From an uncultured Ruminococcus sp. (GTDB lineage Bacteria > Bacillota > Clostridia > Oscillospirales > Ruminococcaceae): DNA of 32,600 nt. Positions 190-11,900 of this stretch are shown here, piece after piece (positions within the stretch are counted from its first letter, which is position 1; the number at the start of each line of letters is the position of its first letter). The stretch covers positions 1 through 32,600 of the forward strand of contig CACZPI010000105.1 of the NCBI GenBank assembly GCA_902783005.1, given 5' to 3'. A model generated the notes under the pieces. That model saw only the letters and a program-made list of their open reading frames with translations, made no database searches and was not told the origin of the DNA. The position numbers and the translations under genes are program-made.

Positions 190-1608
190 CTATCTGAGCT
201 TTTCGTCAAATTTATTCTTTTTGCCGGCGCCGGAAACATCTACCGGATATTCCCCGGTGAAGCAGCCCTGGCAGAATCCGTCCTTTTGCCCGATCAGCTC
301 GCCAAGCGATTCCACCGGCAGATAGGCCAGGCTGTCCGCACCGATATGTGCTGCGATCTCATCGGCGCTGCGGTACTGATTGGCGATCAGATGCTCCTCG
401 GAATCAATATCCGTCCCGAAATAACACCCGTGCAGAAACGGCGGGGAGGAAATGCGCACATGCACCTGAGAAGCCCCCGCATCCCGGAGCAGCCGGATGA
501 TCTTGGCGCTGGTCGTGCCGCGAACAATGCTGTCGTCGATCATGACAACGCGCTTGCCGGCGACGGTCTCCCGGATGACATTGAGCTTGATGCGCACGGC
601 ATTTTCCCGCATGGACTGCTCCGGCTGAATAAAGCTCCTGCCGATATACTTGTTCTTGATAAAACCGATCCCGTAGGGGATCCCGCTCTCCTGCGCATAG
701 CCAAGCGCGGCATCGAGTCCGGAATCCGGAACACCGATCACCACATCTGCCCCGACAGGATGATTCCGTGCAAGGAGCTTTCCGGCGCAGATCCGGGCAT
801 GATGCACCGAGACCCCGCCGATCACCGTATCCGGCCGCGCAAAGTAGATGTACTCAAAAATGCAGAAGCTCGGGGGCTTGCTTCCGCAGTGCGTCCGGAT
901 GGACTGGAGCCCCTCATTGCTGACAATGACGATCTCCCCCGGATCAATGTCCCGCAGGAATGCCGCGCCCGCTGCATCGAGCGCACAGCTTTCCGAGGCA
1001 ATGATGTACGCGCCGTCCGGCGTTCTGCCGATGCACAGCGGCCGGAATCCGTTCGGGTCGCGGAATGCGATGAGCTTCTGCGCCGTCATCACAATGCAGG
1101 AATAGGCGCCGCATAAATGCTGCATTGCCTGGCTGACGGCGTCCTCCGTGGAGCCGCATTGCAGGCGGTGACGGACGATCTCATAGGCGATCGCTTCGGT
1201 GTCGGAAGTCCCGTGGAAGATCGCGCCGGACAGCTCAAAGCGGCTTCTCAGATCAAAGGCATTGGTGAGGTTGCCGTTGTGGACAAGCGCAAGATTGCCC
1301 TTGATGTGGCGGATGACGAGCGGCTGGATGTTATTCCGGTCGTGCCCGCCGGTGGTGGAATAGCGCACATGCCCGACGGCCATCTGACCGCTGCCAAGTG
1401 AACGGAGGACTTCCGGTGTGAATACCTCAGAAACCAGACCGTCCTCCCGGTATTGTGTCATGACACCGCTGTCGCAGACGGCAATGCCGCAGCTTTCCTG
1501 TCCGCGGTGCTGGAGTGCATACAGCCCGAAATAGGTGCTGGCTGCCACATTCGATGCATCCGGTGTAAAGATGCCGAATACACCGCATTCTTCATGAATC
1601 GTTTCCAA
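190..1608 (-). CDS. purF: Amidophosphoribosyltransferase PurF
   Basis: This enzyme catalyses the first committed step of purine synthesis, transferring the glutamine amide to PRPP to give phosphoribosylamine. The 472-aa protein starts with a 7-residue propeptide followed by Cys8 in the CGVFGI motif, the N-terminal nucleophile of the class II glutaminase domain (about 8-230). The C-terminal phosphoribosyltransferase domain carries the PRPP loop VVMIDDSIVRGTT. Cysteines in SFCIFEY, HGCYFG and CQGC match the four Fe-S ligands of the Bacillus subtilis-type enzyme. The start is TTG at 1608, preceded by GGAGAG about 9 nt upstream. It lies 20 nt after the ANTAR gene as the last gene of the gltB operon, so a glutamine consumer is transcribed with glutamate/glutamine supply genes. 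Confidence 0.96.
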   Translation of the reverse strand: METIHEECGVFGIFTPDASNVAASTYFGLYALQHRGQESCGIAVCDSGVMTQYREDGLVSEVFTPEVLRSLGSGQMAVGHVRYSTTGGHDRNNIQPLVIRHIKGNLALVHNGNLTNAFDLRSRFELSGAIFHGTSDTEAIAYEIVRHRLQCGSTEDAVSQAMQHLCGAYSCIVMTAQKLIAFRDPNGFRPLCIGRTPDGAYIIASESCALDAAGAAFLRDIDPGEIVIVSNEGLQSIRTHCGSKPPSFCIFEYIYFARPDTVIGGVSVHHARICAGKLLARNHPVGADVVIGVPDSGLDAALGYAQESGIPYGIGFIKNKYIGRSFIQPEQSMRENAVRIKLNVIRETVAGKRVVMIDDSIVRGTTSAKIIRLLRDAGASQVHVRISSPPFLHGCYFGTDIDSEEHLIANQYRSADEIAAHIGADSLAYLPVESLGELIGQKDGFCQGCFTGEYPVDVSGAGKKNKFDEKLR

Positions 1609-1628: not shown

Positions 1629-2210
1629 TTACAGATATTGTTCATTGATCCGGTCAATGATCTCCATTGCCGCGATGGGTTTGCGTTTCCGGTTGTCCAT
1701 CGCATATTTTTCCAGATAGGAATGTGCCTGCTCCTCCGTCATGCCCTGATACTGCATCATGAGGAATTTGGCACGGTCAATTGTGCGGATGTCGCGCAGC
1801 TTCTGTTCAAGCCGGGCGTTATCCTCGAGAATATTGGCACACCGCTGCATGACAATCTCCATCGTCCGGATCAGCTGGTACAGGATCTGCTTGTTGACCG
1901 GTCTGCCCAGTACGATCACCTGGTGGTGATCCGAGAGCCAGGCAAGCTGCTCCGCCTGTTCCTGCTTGAGGAGCAGGATGCAGTTGCTGTTGGTATGCCG
2001 TGTGATATATTTCGCCAGTTCTACGCCGCTTTCATCAATCAGCGGCGCATGGATCACAACCAGCTCTGTGTGATGATCTTGTTCCAGAATGCTCCTGGCC
2101 TGATAGGCCGAGGGAAGTGTTTTGATGCTGCACTGGAACGATGATTTCAAAAAGCCTTCAAGTGATTCCGCAGCCCCATTGCTGCCTGACAGGATCAGAA
2201 TTTGCTCCAT
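1629..2210 (-). CDS. ANTAR-domain RNA-binding antiterminator with degenerate receiver domain (NitR/NasT-like)
   Basis: The 193-aa protein has an N-terminal receiver-like fold (about 1-118), a helical linker and a C-terminal ANTAR domain (about 133-190, core RTIDRAKFLMMQYQGMTEEQ). ANTAR proteins bind paired hairpins in leader RNAs and prevent terminator formation. The receiver lacks normal phosphorylation residues: the N-terminal acidic pair is replaced by Ser-Gly-Ser (8-10), the acceptor Asp by His54, and the conserved Lys by Arg103. Phosphorelay control is therefore unlikely and a protein or ligand signal is expected. The gene follows the GS-like gene by 30 nt, with a good ribosome site (GGAGG). 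Candidate ANTAR target hairpins lie in the leaders of its own operon and of the divergent GSIII gene. From memory, NitR of Clostridium saccharobutylicum is an ANTAR protein encoded beside glnA and GOGAT genes. Confidence 0.9.
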   Translation of the reverse strand: MEQILILSGSNGAAESLEGFLKSSFQCSIKTLPSAYQARSILEQDHHTELVVIHAPLIDESGVELAKYITRHTNSNCILLLKQEQAEQLAWLSDHHQVIVLGRPVNKQILYQLIRTMEIVMQRCANILEDNARLEQKLRDIRTIDRAKFLMMQYQGMTEEQAHSYLEKYAMDNRKRKPIAAMEIIDRINEQYL

Positions 2211-2240: not shown

Positions 2241-3464
2241 TCAGTGCTGAGCTTTCGCAAACGCTGTCCATTCATCGCGGCGTCTTTTCAGAAAACCGTC
2301 CAGAACGGAAGGCGGGATATGTTCTGCCAGAAATGCGGAATTTCCGGCACAGTCTGCCGCTTCTGACAGATCATGCGGAAGCTCCTGCGTACCGCTGTTT
2401 TCAGGCGGCAGGGGCAGATCCTCTGCAATACCCTCCATTGCTGCGCAGATCATGAGTCCGAAGACATAGTACGGATTGCAGGCGCAGTCGGCTGCCCGCA
2501 GGGTCATGCCCTCGCCGGCAGATTCGTCATAAAGCCGGAACAGCTGTTCCCCCTCACGCATCGACCAGGTGACAGTGCGGGGAACGGCGAAATCGCCAAG
2601 TCTTGCATAGGAGCCGACTGCTGTATTCGTAAACAGCGCAAATTCGCGGATGCGCCGCATGATACCGGCGGCCGCATGCCGCTGCAGGGCAAGGTCGATC
2701 CGGTCTTCCTCCGCGTGGTAGACAGTCATGGTGATATGCATGCCGTTCCCGAATGCATCCGGCAGCGGCTTAGGTGCAAAGGATGCATAGACGCCGTGTG
2801 CGCTGCTGACAGAACGGACAGCGGATTTGAAGCTGAGGAATGTATCCGCAGCCTTGAGCGCCGAGGAGGCAGCAAAATCAATTTCATGCTGCCCGGCGCC
2901 TGCCTCATGGTGGGATGCCACGGGACGAATGCCCATCTGTTCGAGGGTCAGGCAGACATCCCTCCGGAGATTCTCGCCCTTGTCCTCCGGCGCCGTGTCA
3001 TAGCATCCGGCTTGGTCATGGGGAAGCTCAGTCGGAAGCCCGAGGTCGTCGAGCAGAAAGAGCATGAATTCACAGGAGGTGCCGAAGCGGAAACGGTAGC
3101 CCTTCCGGATGGCCTCCTTCATGATCGCTTTGAGGAAATACCGGCTGTCTGCTTCAAAATGCGAGCCGTCAGCGTAGCGGATGTAGCAGAACATCCGGAT
3201 AACTCTGCCGTCCTGCGGTCTCCACGGCAGAGGGGTCATGGTCTGGCTGTCCGGAAACAGGAACAGATCGCGCCCCTGTGCTGCCTCAAAGCCCTTGATC
3301 TTCTTGGCGGTGATCCGGATGCCCCGTGCAAATGCACTGGCAAGCTCGGAGGCGGGAATGGAGAGGTTTTTCATATGCCCGTTCCCGTCGCAGAATGTGA
3401 GTTTTACAAATTTTACATCATTTTCCTCGATATACTGGAGGATCTCTTCTTCGGAATAGATCAT
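2241..3464 (-). CDS. Glutamine synthetase type I homologue, probably catalytically impaired
   Basis: The 407-aa protein aligns with GSI (usually about 440 aa) along its length: beta-grasp N-domain (FCDGNGHMKN, Asp26 matching Asp50 of the Salmonella enzyme), ligand region SHHEAGAGQHEIDF, and GNGMH with His243 matching His269. Compared by eye with B. subtilis and enterobacterial GS, n1 metal ligands Glu132, Glu187 and Glu194 are kept, as are Arg288, Arg310 and Arg323. Two n2 ligands are replaced (Ser130 for Glu129, Thr321 for Glu357), the flap Glu327 is Ala293 (DFAVP for GYEAP) and Arg339 is Gly305. Loss of the second metal site and the flap glutamate argues against normal ligase activity, while part of the glutamate site could remain. 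It overlaps gltD by 4 nt (ATGA) and precedes the ANTAR gene. It could be a regulatory pseudoenzyme or a ligase for another substrate. Confidence 0.85.
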   Translation of the reverse strand: MIYSEEEILQYIEENDVKFVKLTFCDGNGHMKNLSIPASELASAFARGIRITAKKIKGFEAAQGRDLFLFPDSQTMTPLPWRPQDGRVIRMFCYIRYADGSHFEADSRYFLKAIMKEAIRKGYRFRFGTSCEFMLFLLDDLGLPTELPHDQAGCYDTAPEDKGENLRRDVCLTLEQMGIRPVASHHEAGAGQHEIDFAASSALKAADTFLSFKSAVRSVSSAHGVYASFAPKPLPDAFGNGMHITMTVYHAEEDRIDLALQRHAAAGIMRRIREFALFTNTAVGSYARLGDFAVPRTVTWSMREGEQLFRLYDESAGEGMTLRAADCACNPYYVFGLMICAAMEGIAEDLPLPPENSGTQELPHDLSEAADCAGNSAFLAEHIPPSVLDGFLKRRRDEWTAFAKAQH

Positions 3465-4945
3465 TTCGCACCTCCCGGCAGATTGGAATAGCCCATCAGA
3501 TAACGGTCGATCTCCGCAGCCGCATCGCGGCCTTCCCGGATGGCACGGACGACAAGCGACTGACCAATATGCATGTCGCCCGCCGTAAATACCTTCTCGG
3601 CGGATGTCCGGTGGTAATTCTGCTGTGTTTCCAGATTTCCCCGTGCATTCAGCGCTGCACCGAATGCCCCGGCCAGCCCGCTGTCACATCCGACGAAGCC
3701 CGCCGCGATCAGGCACAGCTCGCAGGGAAGCTCCTCCTCGCTGCCTTCGATCTCATGCGGCCGGCGGTTTTCGTCAAATGCCAGGCGCACCGTCCGCACG
3801 CCGGTCAGATGTCCGTTTTCGTCCTTGACGAATGCCTTGACGGTCGTACAATACCGCCGCGGATCCTCACCGAATACCGCAATGGCCTCCTCCTGACCGT
3901 AATCAGTCTTGCTGATCCGGGGGTATTCCGGGAAGGGATTGTTTTCCGCGCGGGTATCGGGGAGCTTCGGCATCATTTCGAGCTGTACAACGCTTTTGCA
4001 TCCGTGACGGACAGCGGTTCCTACGCAGTCATTTCCGGTGTCGCCGCCGCCGATCACGACGACATGCTTATCCCTGGCGCTGATGTGGTTTCCATCTGTC
4101 AGACCGCCGTCCAGCAGCGCCTTTGTGGTCGAGGTGAGGAAATCCACGGCAAAATGAATGCCGACCGCATCGCGCCCCTCAGCCTGGATGTCCCGCGGGC
4201 GGGATGCACCGCAGGCAAGCACCACGGCATCAAATTCTTCCAGAAGCTCACCTGCGGAAACATCCTGTCCGACGGCGGAATTTAACCGGAATTCCACGCC
4301 CTCCTGTTCCATGAGTGCTGTGCGGCGCAGGACGGTCTGCTTTTCGAGCTTCATATTGGGGATGCCGTACATGAGCAGGCCGCCCGGACGATCTGCCTTT
4401 TCAAAGACCGTGACGGAATGGCCGCGGTGATTGAGCTGGTCGGCGCAGGCAAGGCCGGAGGGGCCGGAGCCGATCACCGCAATGCGCTTCCCGCTTCTTG
4501 TGCCCGGAATGACCGGCTGCATGAGACCATGTGCATAGCCGAATTCGATCAGCTCATATTCATTGTCACGGACTGTCACCGGATCGCCGTAAAGTCCGCA
4601 GGTACATGCCTTTTCACAAAGCGCCGGGCAGACACGCGAGGTAAATTCCGGGAAATTGTTCGTCATCAGAAGCCGGTCAAGCGCCTGTTCCTCGGCGCCC
4701 TTCCAGAGCAGGTCATTCCATTCCGGAATGAGGTTGTTCAGCGGACATCCGGAGATCATGCCGCAGAGCATCTGTCCGTTCTGGCAGAAGGGAACACCGC
4801 AGTCCATGCATCTGCCCGCCTGCTCCTGCCGGGATTCATGCGGCAGGGGCTTGTGGAATTCATTGTAATTCTGAATGCGCTCAAGGGGCGCCGAAGCGGT
4901 GTTCTCTGTGCGTGTATAGTCGAGAAATCCAGTTGCCTTTCCCAT
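3461..4945 (-). CDS. gltD: Glutamate synthase (NADPH) small subunit GltD
   Basis: This subunit oxidises NADPH and passes electrons through FAD and Fe-S clusters to GltB. The N-terminal cysteine-rich region (CMDCGVPFCQ, CGMISGCPLNN, CPALCEKACTCG) supplies the 4Fe-4S ligands. It is followed by the FAD dinucleotide-binding motif GSGPSGLACA and the NADPH motif GGGDTGNDC. At about 494 aa it is the normal length. I chose ATG 4945 over the in-frame GTG at 4951 because AGGA sits 9 nt before the ATG and only 2-3 nt before the GTG. The gene begins 2 nt after the gltB stop, and its own stop overlaps the start of the GS-like gene, so translation is likely coupled. Confidence 0.95.
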   Translation of the reverse strand: MGKATGFLDYTRTENTASAPLERIQNYNEFHKPLPHESRQEQAGRCMDCGVPFCQNGQMLCGMISGCPLNNLIPEWNDLLWKGAEEQALDRLLMTNNFPEFTSRVCPALCEKACTCGLYGDPVTVRDNEYELIEFGYAHGLMQPVIPGTRSGKRIAVIGSGPSGLACADQLNHRGHSVTVFEKADRPGGLLMYGIPNMKLEKQTVLRRTALMEQEGVEFRLNSAVGQDVSAGELLEEFDAVVLACGASRPRDIQAEGRDAVGIHFAVDFLTSTTKALLDGGLTDGNHISARDKHVVVIGGGDTGNDCVGTAVRHGCKSVVQLEMMPKLPDTRAENNPFPEYPRISKTDYGQEEAIAVFGEDPRRYCTTVKAFVKDENGHLTGVRTVRLAFDENRRPHEIEGSEEELPCELCLIAAGFVGCDSGLAGAFGAALNARGNLETQQNYHRTSAEKVFTAGDMHIGQSLVVRAIREGRDAAAEIDRYLMGYSNLPGGAK

Positions 4946-4947
4946 AT

Positions 4948-7900
4948 TCACGCTTCCTTTCTCAGTAAATTGAATGCTTCGATCTCCGCTTCTTCTGCGG
5001 AAGCTCCCTGTGCGGTGAGCTTTGCCACAGTGCCGGTGATCTTGGCATAATCGTGCGGGATGATCTTCTTGAACAGCGGCAGATAGCCGGAAAAATCGGC
5101 CAGGATGCGCTTTGCCTTGGGGGAGCCTGTGGCATCGAGGTGCGCCTGGATCAGCGCCTGGAGCTGTGCAATATCTGCGCTGTCACTGACGCTTTCCATG
5201 GAGACAAGCGCCTTGTTGAGCCGTGTGTAAAGATCGTGCGATTCGTCAAGGACATAGGCGACACCGCCGGACATACCGGCAGCAAAATTCTTGCCCGTCC
5301 GTCCGAGGATGACGACCCGTCCGCCTGTCATGTATTCGCATCCGTGATCCCCGACACCTTCACAGACGGCATCCGCACCGGAATTGCGCACACAGAACCG
5401 TTCGCCTGCAATGCCGTTCATGAATGCCGCACCGGAGGTCGCACCGTAGAGTGCCACGTTGCCGACGATGATATTTTCCTCCGCAGCGAATCCGGAGCCT
5501 GCCGGCGGGAATACCGCAAGCCTGCCCCCGGAAAGGCCTTTTCCGAAATAGTCATTGCCGTCGCCCTCGAGTGTGAGGGTCAGTCCCTTGGGAATAAATG
5601 CGCCGAAGCTCTGCCCGCCGCTTCCGTGGCAATGTACAGTATAGGTGTTGTCCGGAAGCGTCTGCTCTCCGTGCAGCCGTGTGATCTGCGAACCGAAGAG
5701 AATGCCGAACGAGCGGTCTGTATTCTGCACATCCAGGTCAAGGGAGGCAGGCTTGCCCTTTTTCAGAGCGCTGCCCATTTTCTTGAACAGCACCGTTTCA
5801 TCCGCCGTCTGTTCCAGTGCAAAGTCGTAGACATCCTCCGGATCCGAATGCAGCGCACCGCCCGGAATCGTATGCAGGATGCCGGAAAGATCCATGTCCG
5901 GCGCATCCTCCGTGCGGACAAGCAGATCCGTTCTGCCGACCAGCTCATCCACGGTACGAATGCCGAGCTTTGCCATGTATTCCCGCAGCTCCTGCGCCAC
6001 GAAATGCATGAAATTCACGATGTATTCCGGCTTGCCGCGGAATCGCTTGCGCAGCTCCGGATTCTGGGTTGCAATGCCCATGGGGCAGGTATCCAGATTG
6101 CATACCCGCATCATCGTGCAGCCCATGGTCACCAGGGGAGCGGTCGCAAAGCCGAATTCCTCTGCGCCAAGCAGGGCAGCCACAAGAACATCGCGTCCGT
6201 TCATCAGCTTGCCGTCCGTCTCAATGACCACGCGGGAGCGCAGACCGTTGAGGATCAGCGTCTGATGTGCTTCTGCAAGCCCCAGCTCCCAGGGAAGGCC
6301 GGCATTGTAAATGGAGCTGCGCGGCGCAGCGCCGGTGCCGCCGTCGTATCCCGAGATCAGCACGACCTGGGCGCCTGCCTTGGCAACGCCTGCGGCGACG
6401 GTACCCACGCCGGCTTCGGAAACGAGCTTGACGGAAATGCGGGCATCACGGTTGGCATTTTTCAGGTCATAGATGAGCTGTGCGAGATCCTCGATGGAAT
6501 AAATATCATGATGCGGCGGCGGGGAGATCAGCCCGACGCCTGCCGTGGAATGCCGGGTCTTTGCGATCCACGGATAGACCTTTTCAGCCGGAAGGTGGCC
6601 GCCCTCACCGGGCTTGGCACCCTGTGCCATCTTGATCTGGATCTCCTTGGCCGAAACCAGATATTCCGAGGTCACACCGAAGCGTCCGGAAGCGACCTGC
6701 TTGATCGCAGAGCATTTCTCGGAATGCAGCCGCTCCGGAGATTCGCCGCCCTCGCCGGAATTGGACTTGCCGCCGATGCGGTTCATGGCCTCTGCAAGAC
6801 ATTCATGTGCCTCCTGCGAAATGGAGCCGTAGGACATGGCACCTGTCTTGAATCGCTTGCAGATGCTTTCCACGGATTCGACCTCTTCAAGCGGAATGCC
6901 GCCGTCCTCCGGGAAGCGAAAATCCAGAAGGCTGCGGATGGTCAGATGCCTGTCCTCTGCGGTCAGAGCGTGGGAGTATTGCAGGTAAGTCTCATAATTC
7001 CCCGTCCATGCTGCCTGCTGCAGCAGATGGATCGTGGCCGGGGTATACAGATGGTCGGTCTTGCCGCTGCGAAGCTGATGCAGACCGCGGCTGGAAAGGT
7101 TCGGATCCGTATGCAGACCGAGCGGATCAAATGCCAGACGATGCATATGCTCAATGCGGCGGCTGATGTCAGACAGCCCGATGCCGCCGATGCGGCTGAC
7201 AGTGCCGCGAAAATACCGGCTGATGACCTCCCGGGAAATGCCAACGGCTTCAAACAGCTTGCTGCCCTGGTAGGACTGGATCGTGGAAATGCCCATTTTG
7301 GATGCAATCTTGACGATGCCATGCAGAACGGCATTGTTGTAGTCGTCCTCTGCGGCATAGTGATCCTTGGCAAGCTGCCCGCGGCGGATGTAATCGTGAA
7401 TGGTCTCGTGTGCCAGATACGGATTGACAGCACAGGCACCGTAGCCGAGCAGCGCAGCAAAATGATGCACCTCACGAGGCTCTGCGCTTTCGAGCACAAT
7501 GGAAACGGCAGTCCGCTTCTTTGTGGAGACCAGATGCTGCTGCAATGCCGCAACGGCCAGAAGGGAAGGGATCGCACAGCGGGATTCATCCACATCCCGG
7601 TCAGAGAGGATCAGAATGTTGGCGCCGCTGCGGTAAGCCTTGTCCGCCTCGATGAACAGACGCTCGATCGCATGCTCCAGTGTGGTACCGATATAGAAGG
7701 TGATCGGAATGACGGCGGAGCGCAGACCGGGTGTTTGCAGGGATTTGATCTTCAGAATATCGGTCTCGCTGAGAATGGGATTCTCAATTTTCAGGACGCG
7801 GCAGTTTTCCGGGGATTCTTCGAGGAGATTGCCGTCCTCACCGATATAAACGGTGGTATCTGTGACCACTTCCTCGCGGATCGCGTCGATCGGGGGATTC

Positions 7901-9474
7901 GTTACCTGTGCAAAGAGTTGCCGGAAATAGTTGAACAGCGGAGGCTGCTCTGCATCGAGAGAGGGAAGCGGTACATCGCTGCCCATAGAAGCGATCGGCT
8001 CTGCACCGGATCCCGCCATGGGAAGAATGCTGCGGCAGATGTCCTCATAGGAGTAGCCGAATGCCTTCTGCAGGCGGGTCAGCTCCTCATGGGAATAGAT
8101 GCGTACCTTCTGGTTCGGGATGCGGATATCCCCGAGCTTCATCAGATTCATGTCCAGCCATTCGCCGTAGGGCTGCGAGGAGGCATATTGGTGCTTGATC
8201 TCATCGTCATCCACAAGCCGCCCTTGTCTGGTATCGGCCAGGAGCATTTTTCCGGGCCGCAGCCGGTCCTTCTTCACGATCTGCTCCGGCGGAATGTCAA
8301 TGCAGCCCGTTTCAGACGACAGCACCAGGAATCCGTCGGATGTGATGCAGTAGCGCGAGGGACGCAGGCCGTTGCGGTCGAGCACCGCGCCCATGACCTC
8401 GCCGTCAGAAAACAGGATGGAAGCCGGGCCGTCCCAGGGCTCCATCATGGTGGCGTAATACTGGTAGAAATCTTGCTTGTCCTGGGAAAGGGTGCGGTCA
8501 TTTTTCCACGGCTCCGGGATGAGGAGCATCACTGTCTTCGGCAGCGGCATGCCGGACATCACGAGAAATTCCAGCGCATTGTCCAGTCTTGCGGAATCCG
8601 AGCCGTCGGGATTGAGCGCCGGAAGGATCTTGTGCAGATGCTCCCGGAATGCTTCACAGGACATGGTCTCCTCGCGGGCAAGCATCTTGTCGGCGTTGCC
8701 GGTGATGGTGTTGATCTCACCGTTATGGACGATCAGCCGGTTCGGATGTGCCTTCTGCCAGCTCGGGGAGGTGTTCGTGGAGAAGCGGGAATGCACCATG
8801 GCGATCGCCGATACAAACCGGCTGTCCTGCAGATCCGGATAGAACCGGCGCAGCTCATCGACCAGGAACATACCCTTATAAACGATCGTGCGGCTCGACA
8901 GGGAGCAGACGTAGGTCAGCTCATTGGACTGCTCAAATTCTCTGCGGATAAAAAACAGCTTCCTGTCGAAGGCAAGCCCGCGTTCGCAATCCTCCGGCCG
9001 CGCCACAAATCCCTGCCAGATCTGCGGCATGCTCTCTCTGGCTCTGCTGCCGAGAATTTCCGGGCAGCAGGGAACGCGGCGCCATCCGAGGAAGGTCAGG
9101 CCGTTTTTCTGCACAATGATCTCAAAGAGCTTTTTGGCCTGTGCGCATTTCAGTTCACTTTGCGGCAGGAAAAACATGCCCACGCCGAAATCGCCGGTCT
9201 CACCGGTCTGAAAGCCGAGCGCCTGCGCGGCATCTGAAAAGAATGCCCCCGGGATCTGTGTCAGGATTCCCACACCGTCACCGGTTTTTCCTTCCGCATC
9301 CTTGCCTGCGCGGTGTTCGAGCTTTTCGACAATGGATAAAGCGTCATCGACCACGCGCCGTGAACGTTCGCCTTTGAGGTTCACGACAGCACCGATGCCG
9401 CAGTTTTCGTGTTCAAATGTGGGGCTGTACAGCCCCTGTGCCTGATAGGGGGCTTCCTCTCTGAAATGATCCAT
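4948..9474 (-). CDS. gltB: Glutamate synthase (NADPH) large subunit GltB
   Basis: This subunit makes two glutamates from glutamine and 2-oxoglutarate. The 1508-aa protein begins with a class II glutaminase domain whose nucleophile is Cys25 (ENCGIGAV), giving a predicted 24-residue propeptide. A central domain follows, then the FMN synthase domain with the 3Fe-4S cysteines in CTMMRVCNLDTCPMG (about residues 1118-1130) and a C-terminal glycine-rich beta-helix. The open frame extends to 9600, but that would include the promoter. ATG 9474 is the right start because AAAGGA lies 10 nt upstream and the protein then begins like its family. It is the first gene of the gltB-gltD-GS-like-ANTAR-purF operon, behind a leader attenuator. 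Confidence 0.97.
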   Translation of the reverse strand: MDHFREEAPYQAQGLYSPTFEHENCGIGAVVNLKGERSRRVVDDALSIVEKLEHRAGKDAEGKTGDGVGILTQIPGAFFSDAAQALGFQTGETGDFGVGMFFLPQSELKCAQAKKLFEIIVQKNGLTFLGWRRVPCCPEILGSRARESMPQIWQGFVARPEDCERGLAFDRKLFFIRREFEQSNELTYVCSLSSRTIVYKGMFLVDELRRFYPDLQDSRFVSAIAMVHSRFSTNTSPSWQKAHPNRLIVHNGEINTITGNADKMLAREETMSCEAFREHLHKILPALNPDGSDSARLDNALEFLVMSGMPLPKTVMLLIPEPWKNDRTLSQDKQDFYQYYATMMEPWDGPASILFSDGEVMGAVLDRNGLRPSRYCITSDGFLVLSSETGCIDIPPEQIVKKDRLRPGKMLLADTRQGRLVDDDEIKHQYASSQPYGEWLDMNLMKLGDIRIPNQKVRIYSHEELTRLQKAFGYSYEDICRSILPMAGSGAEPIASMGSDVPLPSLDAEQPPLFNYFRQLFAQVTNPPIDAIREEVVTDTTVYIGEDGNLLEESPENCRVLKIENPILSETDILKIKSLQTPGLRSAVIPITFYIGTTLEHAIERLFIEADKAYRSGANILILSDRDVDESRCAIPSLLAVAALQQHLVSTKKRTAVSIVLESAEPREVHHFAALLGYGACAVNPYLAHETIHDYIRRGQLAKDHYAAEDDYNNAVLHGIVKIASKMGISTIQSYQGSKLFEAVGISREVISRYFRGTVSRIGGIGLSDISRRIEHMHRLAFDPLGLHTDPNLSSRGLHQLRSGKTDHLYTPATIHLLQQAAWTGNYETYLQYSHALTAEDRHLTIRSLLDFRFPEDGGIPLEEVESVESICKRFKTGAMSYGSISQEAHECLAEAMNRIGGKSNSGEGGESPERLHSEKCSAIKQVASGRFGVTSEYLVSAKEIQIKMAQGAKPGEGGHLPAEKVYPWIAKTRHSTAGVGLISPPPHHDIYSIEDLAQLIYDLKNANRDARISVKLVSEAGVGTVAAGVAKAGAQVVLISGYDGGTGAAPRSSIYNAGLPWELGLAEAHQTLILNGLRSRVVIETDGKLMNGRDVLVAALLGAEEFGFATAPLVTMGCTMMRVCNLDTCPMGIATQNPELRKRFRGKPEYIVNFMHFVAQELREYMAKLGIRTVDELVGRTDLLVRTEDAPDMDLSGILHTIPGGALHSDPEDVYDFALEQTADETVLFKKMGSALKKGKPASLDLDVQNTDRSFGILFGSQITRLHGEQTLPDNTYTVHCHGSGGQSFGAFIPKGLTLTLEGDGNDYFGKGLSGGRLAVFPPAGSGFAAEENIIVGNVALYGATSGAAFMNGIAGERFCVRNSGADAVCEGVGDHGCEYMTGGRVVILGRTGKNFAAGMSGGVAYVLDESHDLYTRLNKALVSMESVSDSADIAQLQALIQAHLDATGSPKAKRILADFSGYLPLFKKIIPHDYAKITGTVAKLTAQGASAEEAEIEAFNLLRKEA

Positions 9475-9506
9475 AGTATTCAAGTCCTTTCTGCTTGCAG
9501 AGCTGC

Positions 9507-9560
9507 AAAAAAAGAAAAGACGCCCACAACCGGACACTTCGCCCGTTCGTGAACGTCTTT
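9507..9560 (-). terminator. Leader attenuator terminator upstream of gltB
   Basis: Arms at 9560-9543 and 9533-9516 form an 18-position stem with one A/G mismatch and three G-U pairs. The loop is 9 nt, followed by TTTTTTT at 9513-9507. It lies between the promoter and the gltB start, so it would end transcription before the operon unless disrupted. Its 5' arm begins with the loop of the ANTAR-type hairpin, so the two structures exclude each other. Confidence 0.85.
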
Positions 9561-9565
9561 GTTCA
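9531..9565 (-). promoter_or_regulatory. Candidate ANTAR-protein target (tandem hairpins) in gltB leader
   Basis: The first hairpin has 5 bp (9565-9561 with 9554-9550) and the six-base loop AAAGAC, with A at position 1 and G at position 4 as in known ANTAR targets. A second hairpin follows after 4 nt: 5 bp (9545-9541 with 9535-9531) with a 5-base loop GAAGT. The second loop does not fit the six-base rule, so it is the weaker half. Both compete with the attenuator stem. The regulator is encoded four genes downstream in the same operon. Confidence 0.65.
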
Positions 9566-9571
9566 ATTAGC

Positions 9572-9600
9572 ATTATATCATACATACGGACAACTGTCAA
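9572..9600 (-). promoter_or_regulatory. Sigma-A promoter of the gltB operon
   Basis: A perfect consensus: TTGACA at 9600-9595, a 17-bp spacer and TATAAT at 9577-9572. The predicted transcript start near 9565 places the ANTAR-type hairpin at the very 5' end of the RNA. Confidence 0.88.
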
Positions 9601-9604
9601 TCCC

Positions 9605-9684
9605 TGACGGACAAATTTGTGAATTACGAGCAGAATTATCTCTGAAACAGACGAAAAATCTGTGCGTCCTTCACGAATCCGTCA
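9605..9684. repeat. Imperfect inverted repeat between the divergent gltB and GSIII promoters
   Basis: The left arm contains TGACGGA (9605-9611) and TTTGTGAA (9616-9623). The right arm is TTCACGAATCCGTCA (9670-9684), the reverse complement apart from an insertion in the left arm and one changed base. Each arm ends within 10 bp of one of the two -35 boxes, as would suit a DNA-binding regulator acting on both promoters. No such regulator is seen in the window. Confidence 0.4.
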
Positions 9685-9692
9685 AAAAGCCC

Positions 9693-9721
9693 TTGACAAA
9701 TCTGCGGAAACGGAGTATACT
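9693..9721 (+). promoter_or_regulatory. Sigma-A promoter of the type III glutamine synthetase gene
   Basis: TTGACA at 9693-9698, a 17-bp spacer and TATACT at 9716-9721. The predicted start near 9728 precedes the leader hairpins by only a few bases. Confidence 0.87.
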
Positions 9722-9731
9722 GGCAGTGTAA

Positions 9732-9762
9732 ACAGCAAAGGAGCTGTGGAGCAATGCGTTCC
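9732..9762 (+). promoter_or_regulatory. Candidate ANTAR-protein target (tandem hairpins) in GSIII leader
   Basis: The first hairpin pairs ACAGC (9732-9736) with GCTGT (9743-9747) around the six-base loop AAAGGA (A1, G4). A second, directly adjacent hairpin pairs GGAGC (9748-9752) with GTTCC (9758-9762, one G-U) around AATGC. The layout matches the gltB leader: first loop AAAG.., second hairpin of 5 bp with a 5-base loop, and both exclusive with the terminator. Confidence 0.65.
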
Positions 9763-9780
9763 ACAGCTCCTTTTGTATTT
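9737..9780 (+). terminator. Leader attenuator terminator upstream of the GSIII gene
   Basis: A perfect 14-bp stem (9737-9750 with 9760-9773) has a 9-nt loop and is followed by a T-rich but interrupted tract (9771-9780). It ends 30 nt before the start codon, so it must be an attenuator rather than the end of another gene. No plus-strand gene precedes it. Confidence 0.85.
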
Positions 9781-9809
9781 TCTGCTGTGCATTTCAAGGA
9801 GGTATTGTT

Positions 9810-11900
9810 ATGGAAAAGGTCACTGAATTTTTCGGCTCAATGGTATTTGATGACAGACAGATGAAGGCGCGTCTTTCCGAAAAGGTCTATAAGAGCCTGA
9901 AGCGTACCATCGACAGAGGCACCAAGCTCGACAGCTCGGTTGCAGATGCCGTTGCATCGGCAATGAAGGACTGGGCGCTCGAGCTGGGTGCAACGCATTA
10001 TACCCACTGGTTCCAGCCGGAAACGGGTCTGACTGCCGAGAAGCATGACAGCTTTATTACCCCGGCGCCCGATGGCAGAGTGATCATGGAATTCTCCGGC
10101 AAGGAGCTGGTCAAGGGTGAACCGGATGCCTCCTCCTTCCCGTCCGGCGGTCTGCGTGCCACATTTGAAGCAAGAGGCTATACGGCATGGGATCCGACCT
10201 CCTATGCATTCATCAAGGACGGTACGCTGTACATTCCGACTGCCTTCTGTTCCTATACCGGCGAGGCGCTTGATAAGAAGGTACCGCTGCTGCGTTCTAT
10301 GGAGGCGCTCAATAAGCAGGCCATGCGCATTCTCAAGCTCTTCGGCAATGAGAAGGTGAGAAGTGTGCGCACCTCCGTCGGCCCGGAGCAGGAATATTTC
10401 CTCGTAGACCGCGAGCTCTGGAAGCAGCGCAAGGATCTGATGATGTGCGGCCGCACGCTCTTTGGTGCCATGCCGCCGAAGGGACAGGAAATGGATGACC
10501 ATTACTTCGGTTCGATCAAGCCGAGAGTCGCCGAATACATGGCAGATCTTGACCGGGAGCTCTGGAAGCTCGGGATCTATGCCAAGACCAAGCACAATGA
10601 GGTCGCACCTGCCCAGCATGAGCTTGCCCCGATCTATGACACGACCAATATTGCAGCCGACCACAACCAGCTTACGATGGAGGTCATGCAGAAGGTCGCA
10701 CTGCGTCACGGACTTGTCTGCCTCCTGCATGAAAAGCCCTTTGCCGGCGTGAACGGCTCCGGCAAGCATAATAACTGGTCGATGTCCACGGATCTGGGAG
10801 AAAATCTCCTGTCGCCCGGTGAGACGCCGCAGGAGAATGCACAATTCCTGCTGTTCCTGACCGCCGTCATCAAGGCAGTGGACGATTATCAGGATCTGTT
10901 GCGCCTGTCTGTCGCAACCGCCGGAAATGACCACCGACTCGGCGCAAATGAAGCACCGCCTGCCGTGATCTCCATTTTCCTTGGCGACGAGCTGACGGCC
11001 ATTCTGGAAGCCATCGAGCAGGATGTTCCCTACGGCGGCACAAAGAAGGAGAAAATGCAGCTCGGTGCGGATGTCCTGCCGAAATTCAGCAAAGACACCA
11101 CCGACAGAAACCGCACCTCTCCCTTTGCATTCACCGGCAACAAGTTTGAATTCCGGATGCTGGGTTCCTCGAACAGCATTTCCTGCGCCAATATCCATCT
11201 GAATGCAGCGGTGGCAGAGGTGCTCAGACAGTTTGCGGACGAGCTGGAGCCTGCGGAAGATCTGCATGCAGCCCTGCACGATCTGATCCGCAGAACGATC
11301 CACGACCACAAGCGCATCATCTTCAATGGCAACGGCTATGATGATGCATGGATCGCAGAGGCAGAAAAGCGCGGCCTGATGAATCTGAGGACGACCGCAG
11401 ATGCGATGCCGCATCTGTGCGATGAGAAGAATGTAAAGATGCTGACAGCACACGGCATTTTCACCGAGCCGGAGCTGTATTCCAGACGAGACATCATGCT
11501 CGAGAACTATATCAAGACGGTCGGCATCGAGGCCAAGACCATGGTCGATATGGCGGACAAGGAGATCATTCCGGCAGTGATCCGCTTCACCGCAGATACG
11601 GCAGCGGCGGCAGCAGCCAAGAAGTCCGCTGTTCCGGGTGCAGCCTGCGCAAGAGAAACGCGGGTTGTATCCACGCTGTCTGCACTGACCGATGAAATGG
11701 ATGCCGCTTGCGTAAAGCTCGCAGACGATCTGGCTGCGCTGCAGGGCATGCAGGACATTCTGGAGACGTCTGCCTATGTCCGTGATACACTGATCCCGGC
11801 AATGGAGGCACTTCGTGCTGCGGCCGATCAGGCGGAAACCCTCACCGGTGCAGCCTACTATCCGTTCCCCGCATACGATCAGCTTTTGTTTGGCGTCTGA
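9810..11900 (+). CDS. glnN: Glutamine synthetase type III (GSIII, GlnN family)
   Basis: This is the likely true ammonium-assimilating glutamine synthetase of the window, making glutamine from glutamate, ammonium and ATP. At 696 aa it has the large GSIII size. Typical active-site segments are present: [11 protein letters not shown] with the paired acidic metal ligands, [16 protein letters not shown], the ATP/metal segment [12 protein letters not shown], and [18 protein letters not shown] with the catalytic arginines. A strong ribosome site (AAGGAGG) precedes the ATG. It is transcribed divergently from the gltB operon behind its own attenuator and candidate ANTAR site, so GS and GOGAT are probably regulated together. 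It keeps the residues that the GS-like protein at 2241-3464 lacks. Confidence 0.97.

Follow-up and report, generated by a model that had tools for sequence, protein, structure and literature searches.

Genes and features of the locus

The stretch of DNA considered here (the window, 32,600 nucleotides of contig CACZPI010000105.1 of the uncultured Ruminococcus sp. assembly GCA_902783005.1) belongs to a draft genome (2.87 Mb, 180 contigs) that is 88% complete, and its closest relatives in a contig scan were Oscillospiraceae and Ruminococcus, many of rumen origin. It carries a gene for a glutamine synthetase (GS)-like protein, placed between the glutamate synthase (GOGAT) genes and a gene for an ANTAR-domain regulator (Table 1), and the arrangement gltB-gltD-GS-like-ANTAR-purF is likely to represent a single operon. 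Residues 3-694 of the product of the neighbouring GSIII gene align with the GSIII structure 3o6x (1e-186), and the alignment covers the catalytic blocks, which serves as an independent check given that the catalytic patterns used for GSIII had been taken from the window's own protein; its likeness to GSI is weak (7e-16 over 157 aa). A sequence-only reading had proposed that a true GSIII is encoded nearby, and this held. Besides two GSI homologues, the genome has two further GS genes, both of the GSIII type, one of them being that of the window.

Table 1. Coordinates of the genes and putative regulatory features in the window.
Feature	Position	Strand	Description
purF	190..1608	minus	name is our own reading (Pfam: glutamine amidotransferase domains); closes the likely operon
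ANTAR-domain regulator	1629..2210	minus	193 aa; pseudo-receiver, long helix and ANTAR domain; 30 nt after the GS-like stop
GS-like pseudoenzyme (very likely)	2241..3464	minus	407 aa; Gln-synt_C and Gln-synt_N matches, alignment, AlphaFold2 model
gltD, glutamate synthase small subunit	3461..4951	minus	its stop and the GS-like start share 4 nt
gltB, glutamate synthase large subunit	4948..9474	minus	ATG at 9474 inferred; listed ORF begins at 9600
gltB leader	9511..9566	minus	hexaloop hairpin tgaac-AAAGAC-gttca, loop starts at 9560; excludes terminator ending ...CGTCTTTTCTTTT
gltB promoter-like site	9572..9600	minus	TTGACA (9595-9600), 17 nt, TATAAT (9572-9577); read from sequence
GSIII promoter-like site	9693..9721	plus	TTGACA (9693-9698), 17 nt, TATACT (9716-9721); read from sequence
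GSIII leader	9731..9778	plus	hexaloop hairpin acagc-AAAGGA-gctgt, loop 9737-9742; excludes terminator with arms 9737-9752 / 9758-9773
GSIII	9810..11900	plus	696 aa; has the catalytic blocks; presumed to be a working glutamine synthetase

A GSI fold without its catalytic residues

The GS-like protein matches the Pfam families Gln-synt_C (2.1e-57) and Gln-synt_N (1.3e-16), and both the beta-grasp and the catalytic domain of the GS fold are present, while its score against the curated GlnA equivalog TIGR00653 (230.1 bits) stays below the cut-off of 429.15. The AlphaFold2 model shows a GS fold (pLDDT 82.5, pTM 0.88, with low-confidence stretches at 152-161 and 234-237), the best PDB match of which is the GS of M. 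mazei (8s59; TM 0.90, 35% identity). When residues are numbered according to E. coli GlnA by means of a MAFFT alignment, Ser130 stands at E129, Thr321 at E357, Ala293 at E327 and Gly305 at R339, so that the replacement of two ligands of the second metal site (n2), of the flap glutamate and of R339, as initially claimed, was confirmed to the residue; no acidic residue was found at these positions either by MAFFT or by HMMER alignment to solved GSI chains, the two methods agreeing in their residue calls. Further losses that had not been listed before are D50T, E207V and R355G. Retained residues comprise E132 (E131), E187 (E212), E194 (E220), H243 (H269), R288 (R321), R310 (R344) and R323 (R359), in accordance with the earlier claim that the n1 ligands, His269 and several glutamate/phosphate arginines remain (R321, R344 and R359 being the ones kept), though R355 is lost. 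The roles of these residues come from GS structures and are partly confirmed by PMC9249791. H269 is known as a ligand of the second metal and, when it is counted as such, two of the three n2 ligands (E129 and E357) are lost and H269 alone is kept. The protein also differs from E. coli by H271T and K352A, positions which vary among otherwise intact clostridial GSI. The available data make it very likely that the protein is a catalytically dead GSI, a conclusion that is inferred from the residues in the absence of activity data.

Conservation of the substitutions among orthologues

The contig scan gave 43 loci, one of which (L047) contains no more than a distantly related fragment, while the other 42 (L005-L046) represent the lineage of the window. 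The ANTAR gene lies next to the GS-like gene in all 42, gltD precedes the latter in 40 and purF follows in 40; contig ends truncate L011 and L042, whereas L038 (without gltD) and L035 (without purF) constitute real differences. Residues were counted in 41 distinct proteins, the window protein included and the truncated L042 and the split L044 excluded. D50, E129, E327, R339 and R355 are replaced in every one of them, E207 in 40 with one unread, and E357 in 21, whereas none has lost E131, E220, G265, R321 or R359, and E212 and H269 are each retained in 40 and R344 in 37. The substitutions first noticed in a single protein are therefore shared throughout the lineage for E129, E327 and R339, and in about half of it for E357. 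This residue pattern implies that the n1 metal site and the amino-acid pocket have been retained while the machinery for phosphotransfer and ammonium is gone. The GS-like gene has a dN/dS of 0.03-0.10 in 13 pairs, close to that of gltD (0.03-0.11), with dS above 1 in several pairs, some of them saturated. The gene is thus under strong purifying selection and the window protein belongs to a conserved family rather than being one odd sequence.

Two loci of the lineage deserve separate mention. In L044 (5983-7292) the GS-like gene falls into two frames that overlap, reflecting either an assembly error or a broken gene, and L036 has a gltB-gltD-GS-like-ANTAR-purF locus of Ruminococcus type although its record is titled Alistipes senegalensis, probably through a wrong label or bin.

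The ANTAR partner

The AlphaFold2 model of the adjacent regulator (pLDDT 93.7, pTM 0.73) comprises receiver-like and ANTAR domains together with a long helix, and its top structural matches are EutV bound to RNA (the best), EutV alone, Rv1626 and AmiR in complex with AmiC. The phospho-accepting aspartate of the receiver is absent from 111 of the 114 paired ANTAR proteins (three have Asp and 90 have Asn), the window protein carrying His at this site, and the acidic pocket position is Ser in 101 of the 114. A kinase is an unlikely input to such a receiver because both the phospho-acceptor and the acidic pocket are missing.

Across the 27 loci in which the GS-like, ANTAR and GSIII genes are all available, GS and ANTAR distances correlate with r 0.87, and a partial r of 0.67 remains once the GSIII trend has been removed, a value reached by none of 500 permutations. 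This permutation ignores the shape of the tree, and the result supports co-evolution of the two proteins without proving it. Functional coupling between the GS-like protein and the ANTAR regulator is accordingly considered likely, although no complex has been measured.

Leader switches of gltB and GSIII

Both leaders of the window fit the ANTAR motif (Ramesh 2012): each has a hexaloop with A in first and G in fourth position (A1/G4), the letters demanded by the rule for ANTAR targets (PMC3369931), overlapping an intrinsic terminator. The GSIII hairpin lies 10 nt after TATACT and has bases in common with a terminator of -28.3 kcal/mol, and the gltB hairpin lies 6 nt after TATAAT, with a terminator of -26.5 kcal/mol. 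On their own the hexaloop hairpins attain -6.5 kcal/mol (GSIII) and -3.9 kcal/mol (gltB), the latter not being unusually stable as 14 of 200 shuffled sequences fold as well; it can be inferred that the terminator should prevail over the hairpins as long as no protein is bound to the hexaloop. We regard ANTAR control of the gltB and GSIII leaders as very likely, on sequence evidence and without RNA-binding data.

Scanning 1.52 Mb of fetched loci for hexaloop hairpins that overlap a terminator yielded 121 units of the A1/G4 type, whereas the five control loop types gave 30 to 46 units each, and 83 of the 121 satisfied stricter rules (a C-G closing pair and A as the second loop letter). Counts of base pairing are inflated, since the units had themselves been selected by pairing, and are not taken as evidence. 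Use was made instead of a promoter-proximal test requiring neither a terminator nor particular loop letters, in which 101 hexaloop hairpins were found 1-15 nt after 360 promoter-like sites; A1/G4, one of 16 possible letter pairs, accounted for 68 of them, with the caveat that neighbouring promoter-like sites may score one hairpin twice.

Among the 83 strict units, 68 directly follow a promoter, which leaves no room for an earlier hairpin, and for 43 of the 68 the region from -12 to +130 contains no second A1/G4 hexaloop hairpin of at least 4 bp. The GSIII leader of the window belongs to this group, and the gltB leader falls outside this set only through a 4-bp hairpin at 9462, 98 nt on and inside the gltB start. 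A dual hexaloop, with P1 before P2, was considered for the window leaders and rejected, there being none in the GSIII leader and only the 4-bp hairpin in that of gltB. A search of the whole window against Rfam at gathering scores gave no match, and positions 9400-9900 gave six sub-threshold matches, none of them plausible.

As a separate observation, two hexaloop hairpins 61-122 nt apart occur in the GSIII leaders of L115, L117, L122, L123, L126, L127 and L128, and the same double arrangement at the same range of distances is seen in those of L131, L133, L145, L147, L155 and L157; in several leaders of this set both hairpins overlap a terminator.

Distribution of the motif in the genome and its relatives

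A covariance model of 68 units (R1), six of which came from the source genome and its genus (the two of the window, L081, L006, L036 and L038), matched the source genome in five places at E<0.01. The matches at gltB and on contig C115 arise by construction, both having been training units, the latter standing before an AraC-type response-regulator gene near a glutamate dehydrogenase gene. Matches outside the training set precede amtB (C113), a CTP synthase gene (C145) and an amidohydrolase gene (C145). Such counts are lower bounds because only 150 of 364 first-look candidates were scored, and the window's GSIII leader was missed.

In 16 of 20 loci from the genus the motif lies near the centre (in L186, L189, L191 and L200 the search pointed elsewhere), and the genes behind it in these 16 are asnA (6), gltB (4), amtB (3), pyrG (1), GSIII (1) and a response regulator (1). 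Pfam confirmed one each of asnA, amtB and GSIII in the genus loci, the remaining names being our own reading, and it confirmed pyrG, amtB and the response regulator in the source genome. The genes behind the motif are, hence, mostly nitrogen or glutamine genes. At E<0.01, R1 matched 24 of 27 genus genomes bearing the ANTAR gene versus 3 of 11 lacking it (Fisher 4e-4), all of them drafts of uneven completeness; the three ANTAR-lacking genomes with matches (G006, G008 and G181) are 83, 91 and 59% complete.

Some neighbouring arrangements were also recorded. Contig C113 (L171 / L208) has a hexaloop leader before an ammonium transporter and a downstream PII domain, which by their coordinates apparently form one frame of 605 aa. 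Immediately downstream of a lineage-B pair, L182 has an amtB gene carrying the motif, and in L190 and L197 amtB is located downstream of an ANTAR gene. Contig C115 (L081 1474-1656, plus strand) contains a stand-alone ANTAR ORF of 60 aa between the glutamate dehydrogenase gene and the response-regulator gene, the leader of the latter having a hexaloop/terminator unit (L081, minus strand, near 2501); it is possible that this small ORF acts as a free competitor for RNA.

Repeated loss of catalytic residues in ANTAR-linked GSI

The only other GSI homologue found in the genome (contig C143, L079 6543-8531, minus strand) has an ANTAR gene of its own and carries E129K, E212K, H269T and E327G, which places Lys at two metal glutamates. 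That it might be an ordinary active partner was considered and rejected: it is a second pseudo-GS, of a separate lineage. A total of 125 GSI homologues were aligned, mostly from the genus and the order, and in a tree of 98 of them the window protein and the C143 protein fall in two distinct lineages of 17 and 10 rows, each with support 100; L158, on a long branch, joins the window lineage at support 85 with an unsure placement. Further changed groups appear elsewhere in the tree, namely L118/L124, L150/L151 and a clade of 38 rows, 35 of which have Lys at 327 with other residues mostly intact.

Changes were counted after removal of the 12 scored columns, on the 94 rows left after dropping L158, three outgroups and 27 rows that were fragments or near-duplicates. 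The fewest switches between intact and changed states on this tree is seven, and it is five for E327 alone and five for E129 alone. Rows linked to an ANTAR gene are changed in 73 of 88 cases, the window row included, and the six rows without ANTAR comprise four intact and two changed ones (L136 and L139), whose genomes each have another GSI match. In a class-wide sample of 67 loci from a longer list an ANTAR gene adjoins GSI in 62 (33 changed, 29 intact), and the five loci without it are all intact; in both samples together GSI without ANTAR is intact in 9 of 11. A few loci are common to both samples, and 'changed' includes single replacements. Moreover, the changed share cannot serve as an estimate for the class, the loci having been ranked by likeness to the window protein. 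It is likely that ANTAR-adjoining GSI genes have lost catalytic residues several times, as inferred from the tree of sampled loci.

Proposed mechanism

The comparison supports the earlier suggestion of a substrate-binding pseudoenzyme kept for sensing, in view of the shared losses, the purifying selection, the adjacent ANTAR gene, the receiver without a phospho-acceptor and the leader switches on GSIII and gltB, while ligand binding and signalling themselves remain inferred. On balance we favour, by a modest margin, a role of the GS-like protein as the ligand-sensing partner of the downstream ANTAR antiterminator, following the logic of AmiC-AmiR and NasS-NasT, in which ligand, complex and direction of control are all inferred. 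The retained pocket fits an amino acid and one metal, and glutamine or glutamate is the ligand to which we lean, with limited confidence and no binding data. According to this model glutamine or glutamate, together with Mg, would occupy the retained pocket; under nitrogen excess the liganded GS-like oligomer would hold the ANTAR protein and the leaders would terminate, and under nitrogen limitation the free ANTAR protein would bind the hexaloop as it emerges from RNA polymerase and block the terminator. Antitermination would then turn on GSIII, GOGAT, the GS-like/ANTAR operon itself and amtB.

In Gram-positive GS it is the E flap and the D50 loop, the regions in which the GS-like protein has lost catalysis, that hold GlnR, and TnrA binds at a site overlapping with the one for GlnR (PMC9249791). 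Arg62 of B. subtilis GS helps to fix the glutamine-bound state (PMC9249791), and the alignment reveals no equivalent of it in the GS-like protein, in which glutamine would therefore need another mode of binding. The inferred sign of control rests on two outside facts only, i.e. the induction by NitR of GS/GOGAT genes upon nitrogen limitation (PMC6316151) and the position of glutamine as the signal of excess in Bacilli. Against the model, the second pseudo-GS/ANTAR pair and the stand-alone ANTAR ORF in the genome render the assignment of leaders to ANTAR proteins ambiguous, and the PII domain that is apparently in frame with AmtB could possibly carry the nitrogen signal. The R1 matches in three ANTAR-lacking genomes, the unremarkable stability of the gltB hexaloop hairpin and the loss of Arg62 also speak against it.

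A bolder reading is that across Clostridia ANTAR-coupled GSI repeatedly became a dedicated glutamine receptor, which would make a third class of receptor-antiterminator pair, one derived from a dead enzyme and acting via single 5'-terminal hexaloops on GSIII, GOGAT, amtB, asnA and pyrG; we would hold this to be as readily wrong as right.

Alternative explanations

The GS-like protein might be a non-catalytic subunit that co-assembles with or binds active GSIII or GOGAT and tunes its activity, with ANTAR as a separate matter. In favour of this view, gltD precedes the GS-like gene in nearly all loci of the lineage and the divergently placed GSIII lies near it in the window; in addition, GS is known to form homo-oligomers, which a dead subunit could poison or stabilise. 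Against it, gltBD is missing beside the GS-like/ANTAR pair of L038 and of the second lineage (L079), so that ANTAR is the steadier neighbour, GS-ANTAR co-divergence exceeds the GSIII trend, and a ring shared between GSIII and the GS-like protein is improbable, as we infer from the great divergence of GSIII from GSI. This explanation is considered unlikely.

Also unlikely is a pure scaffold, whereby the pseudo-GS would gather the ANTAR protein without any ligand. ANTAR activity needs dimerisation (PMC3369931) and a GS ring would, by inference, offer many docking sites; on the other hand, the invariance of E131, G265, R321 and R359 in the 41 proteins exceeds what a scaffold would appear to need.

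A glutamate ligase using an amine other than ammonia, as in PuuA and other GSI-fold gamma-glutamyl ligases, corresponds to the earlier suggestion of changed chemistry and is disfavoured for the window protein. D50 and E327 are replaced (by Pro and Tyr) in E. coli PuuA too, an enzyme that couples glutamate with putrescine, and the n1 ligands and the glutamate pocket are retained in the GS-like protein. However, PuuA retains both metal sites, R339 and R355 (E. coli PuuA keeps E129, E131, E212, E220, H269, R339, R344, R355, E357 and R359), whereas the window lineage has lost E129, R339 and R355 throughout and E357 in 21 of 41, owing to which phosphotransfer should fail. For this lineage a ligase is thus very unlikely, although it is not excluded for the E327K group (35 sequences, in most of which E327 alone is replaced).

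Finally, a working divergent glutamine synthetase or a decaying pseudogene, for which the kept fold (TM 0.90 to M. mazei GS) and the split gene of L044 might be cited, is very unlikely given the loss of catalytic residues across orthologues together with full coding and strong purifying selection, the dN/dS values contradicting decay.

Relation to known systems and implications

The preferred reading, that of a sensor coupled to an antiterminator, has several relatives. NitR of Clostridium saccharobutylicum is an ANTAR regulator associated with GS/GOGAT genes that acts by antitermination on nitrogen limitation (PMC6316151); the gene order in this organism is reported to be glnA-nitR-gltAB (Stutz 2007), and the GSI beside nitR is reportedly a working enzyme, whereas the GSI homologue of the window is very likely dead and GSIII is the presumed enzyme. 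Loci ordered GS-ANTAR-gltB-gltD (L165 and L166) have an intact GSI, and the kinship of the window system to NitR is drawn by analogy, resting on the gene order of these two loci. In AmiC-AmiR and NasS-NasT an ANTAR protein is likewise controlled by a separate ligand-binding protein of another family (PMC3795266), and the window pair shares with them both a receiver without a phospho-acceptor and an adjacent protein of ligand-binding type, ligand binding being inferred. The receptors of those systems have a binding-protein fold in place of the GSI fold, and AmiC and NasS release their partner when the ligand arrives, whereas the sign assumed for the window, where complex and release are inferred, is the opposite.

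The feedback-inhibited GS of Bacilli resembles the window system in that a regulator, GlnR or TnrA, reads a GS chain as a glutamine signal (PMC9249791), with an active GS and a DNA-binding regulator there and a putatively dead GS and a regulator with an RNA-binding domain here. FluG of Aspergillus is another regulation-linked GSI homologue for which initial studies did not show catalysis (PMC6478659), but it is fungal and developmental, and no link to ANTAR was found in the abstract of PMC6478659. With regard to the leaders, an A1 and G4 hexaloop overlapping the terminator stem is common to EutV and other ANTAR targets (PMC3369931, PMC8934654), yet described targets are dual while many leaders in the present sample have one hexaloop at the extreme 5' end.

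It was already known that ANTAR motifs precede nitrogen genes, including those for glutamate and glutamine synthases (PMC3369931), and that an ANTAR gene can reside in a clostridial GS/GOGAT cluster, as for NitR and in C. thermocellum (PMC4676874). A literature search of partial coverage found no dead GS beside an ANTAR gene, which does not prove absence. Within the literature so searched, the apparently new elements are a dead GS as ANTAR partner, its repeated origin, the control of GSIII and the 5'-terminal single-hexaloop leaders. If the model is correct, an ancient metabolic enzyme would have become nothing but a sensor on several occasions, and a large group of bacteria from gut and rumen would control nitrogen by means of a dead-GS sensor. 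Automatic annotation is likely to name GS-like genes glutamine synthetase, as a result of which models may misplace ammonium assimilation activity. A single hexaloop is the minimal EutV binding motif, the role of which is still to be determined (Walshe 2022, PMC8934654); leaders of the window type would represent natural single-hexaloop ANTAR switches, in which this role becomes directly testable.

A further observation concerns contig C145 (L173, L174), where leaders of the hexaloop type stand before the CTP synthase gene and the amidohydrolase gene, the product of which we take to be dihydroorotase; nitrogen control may extend to pyrimidine synthesis.
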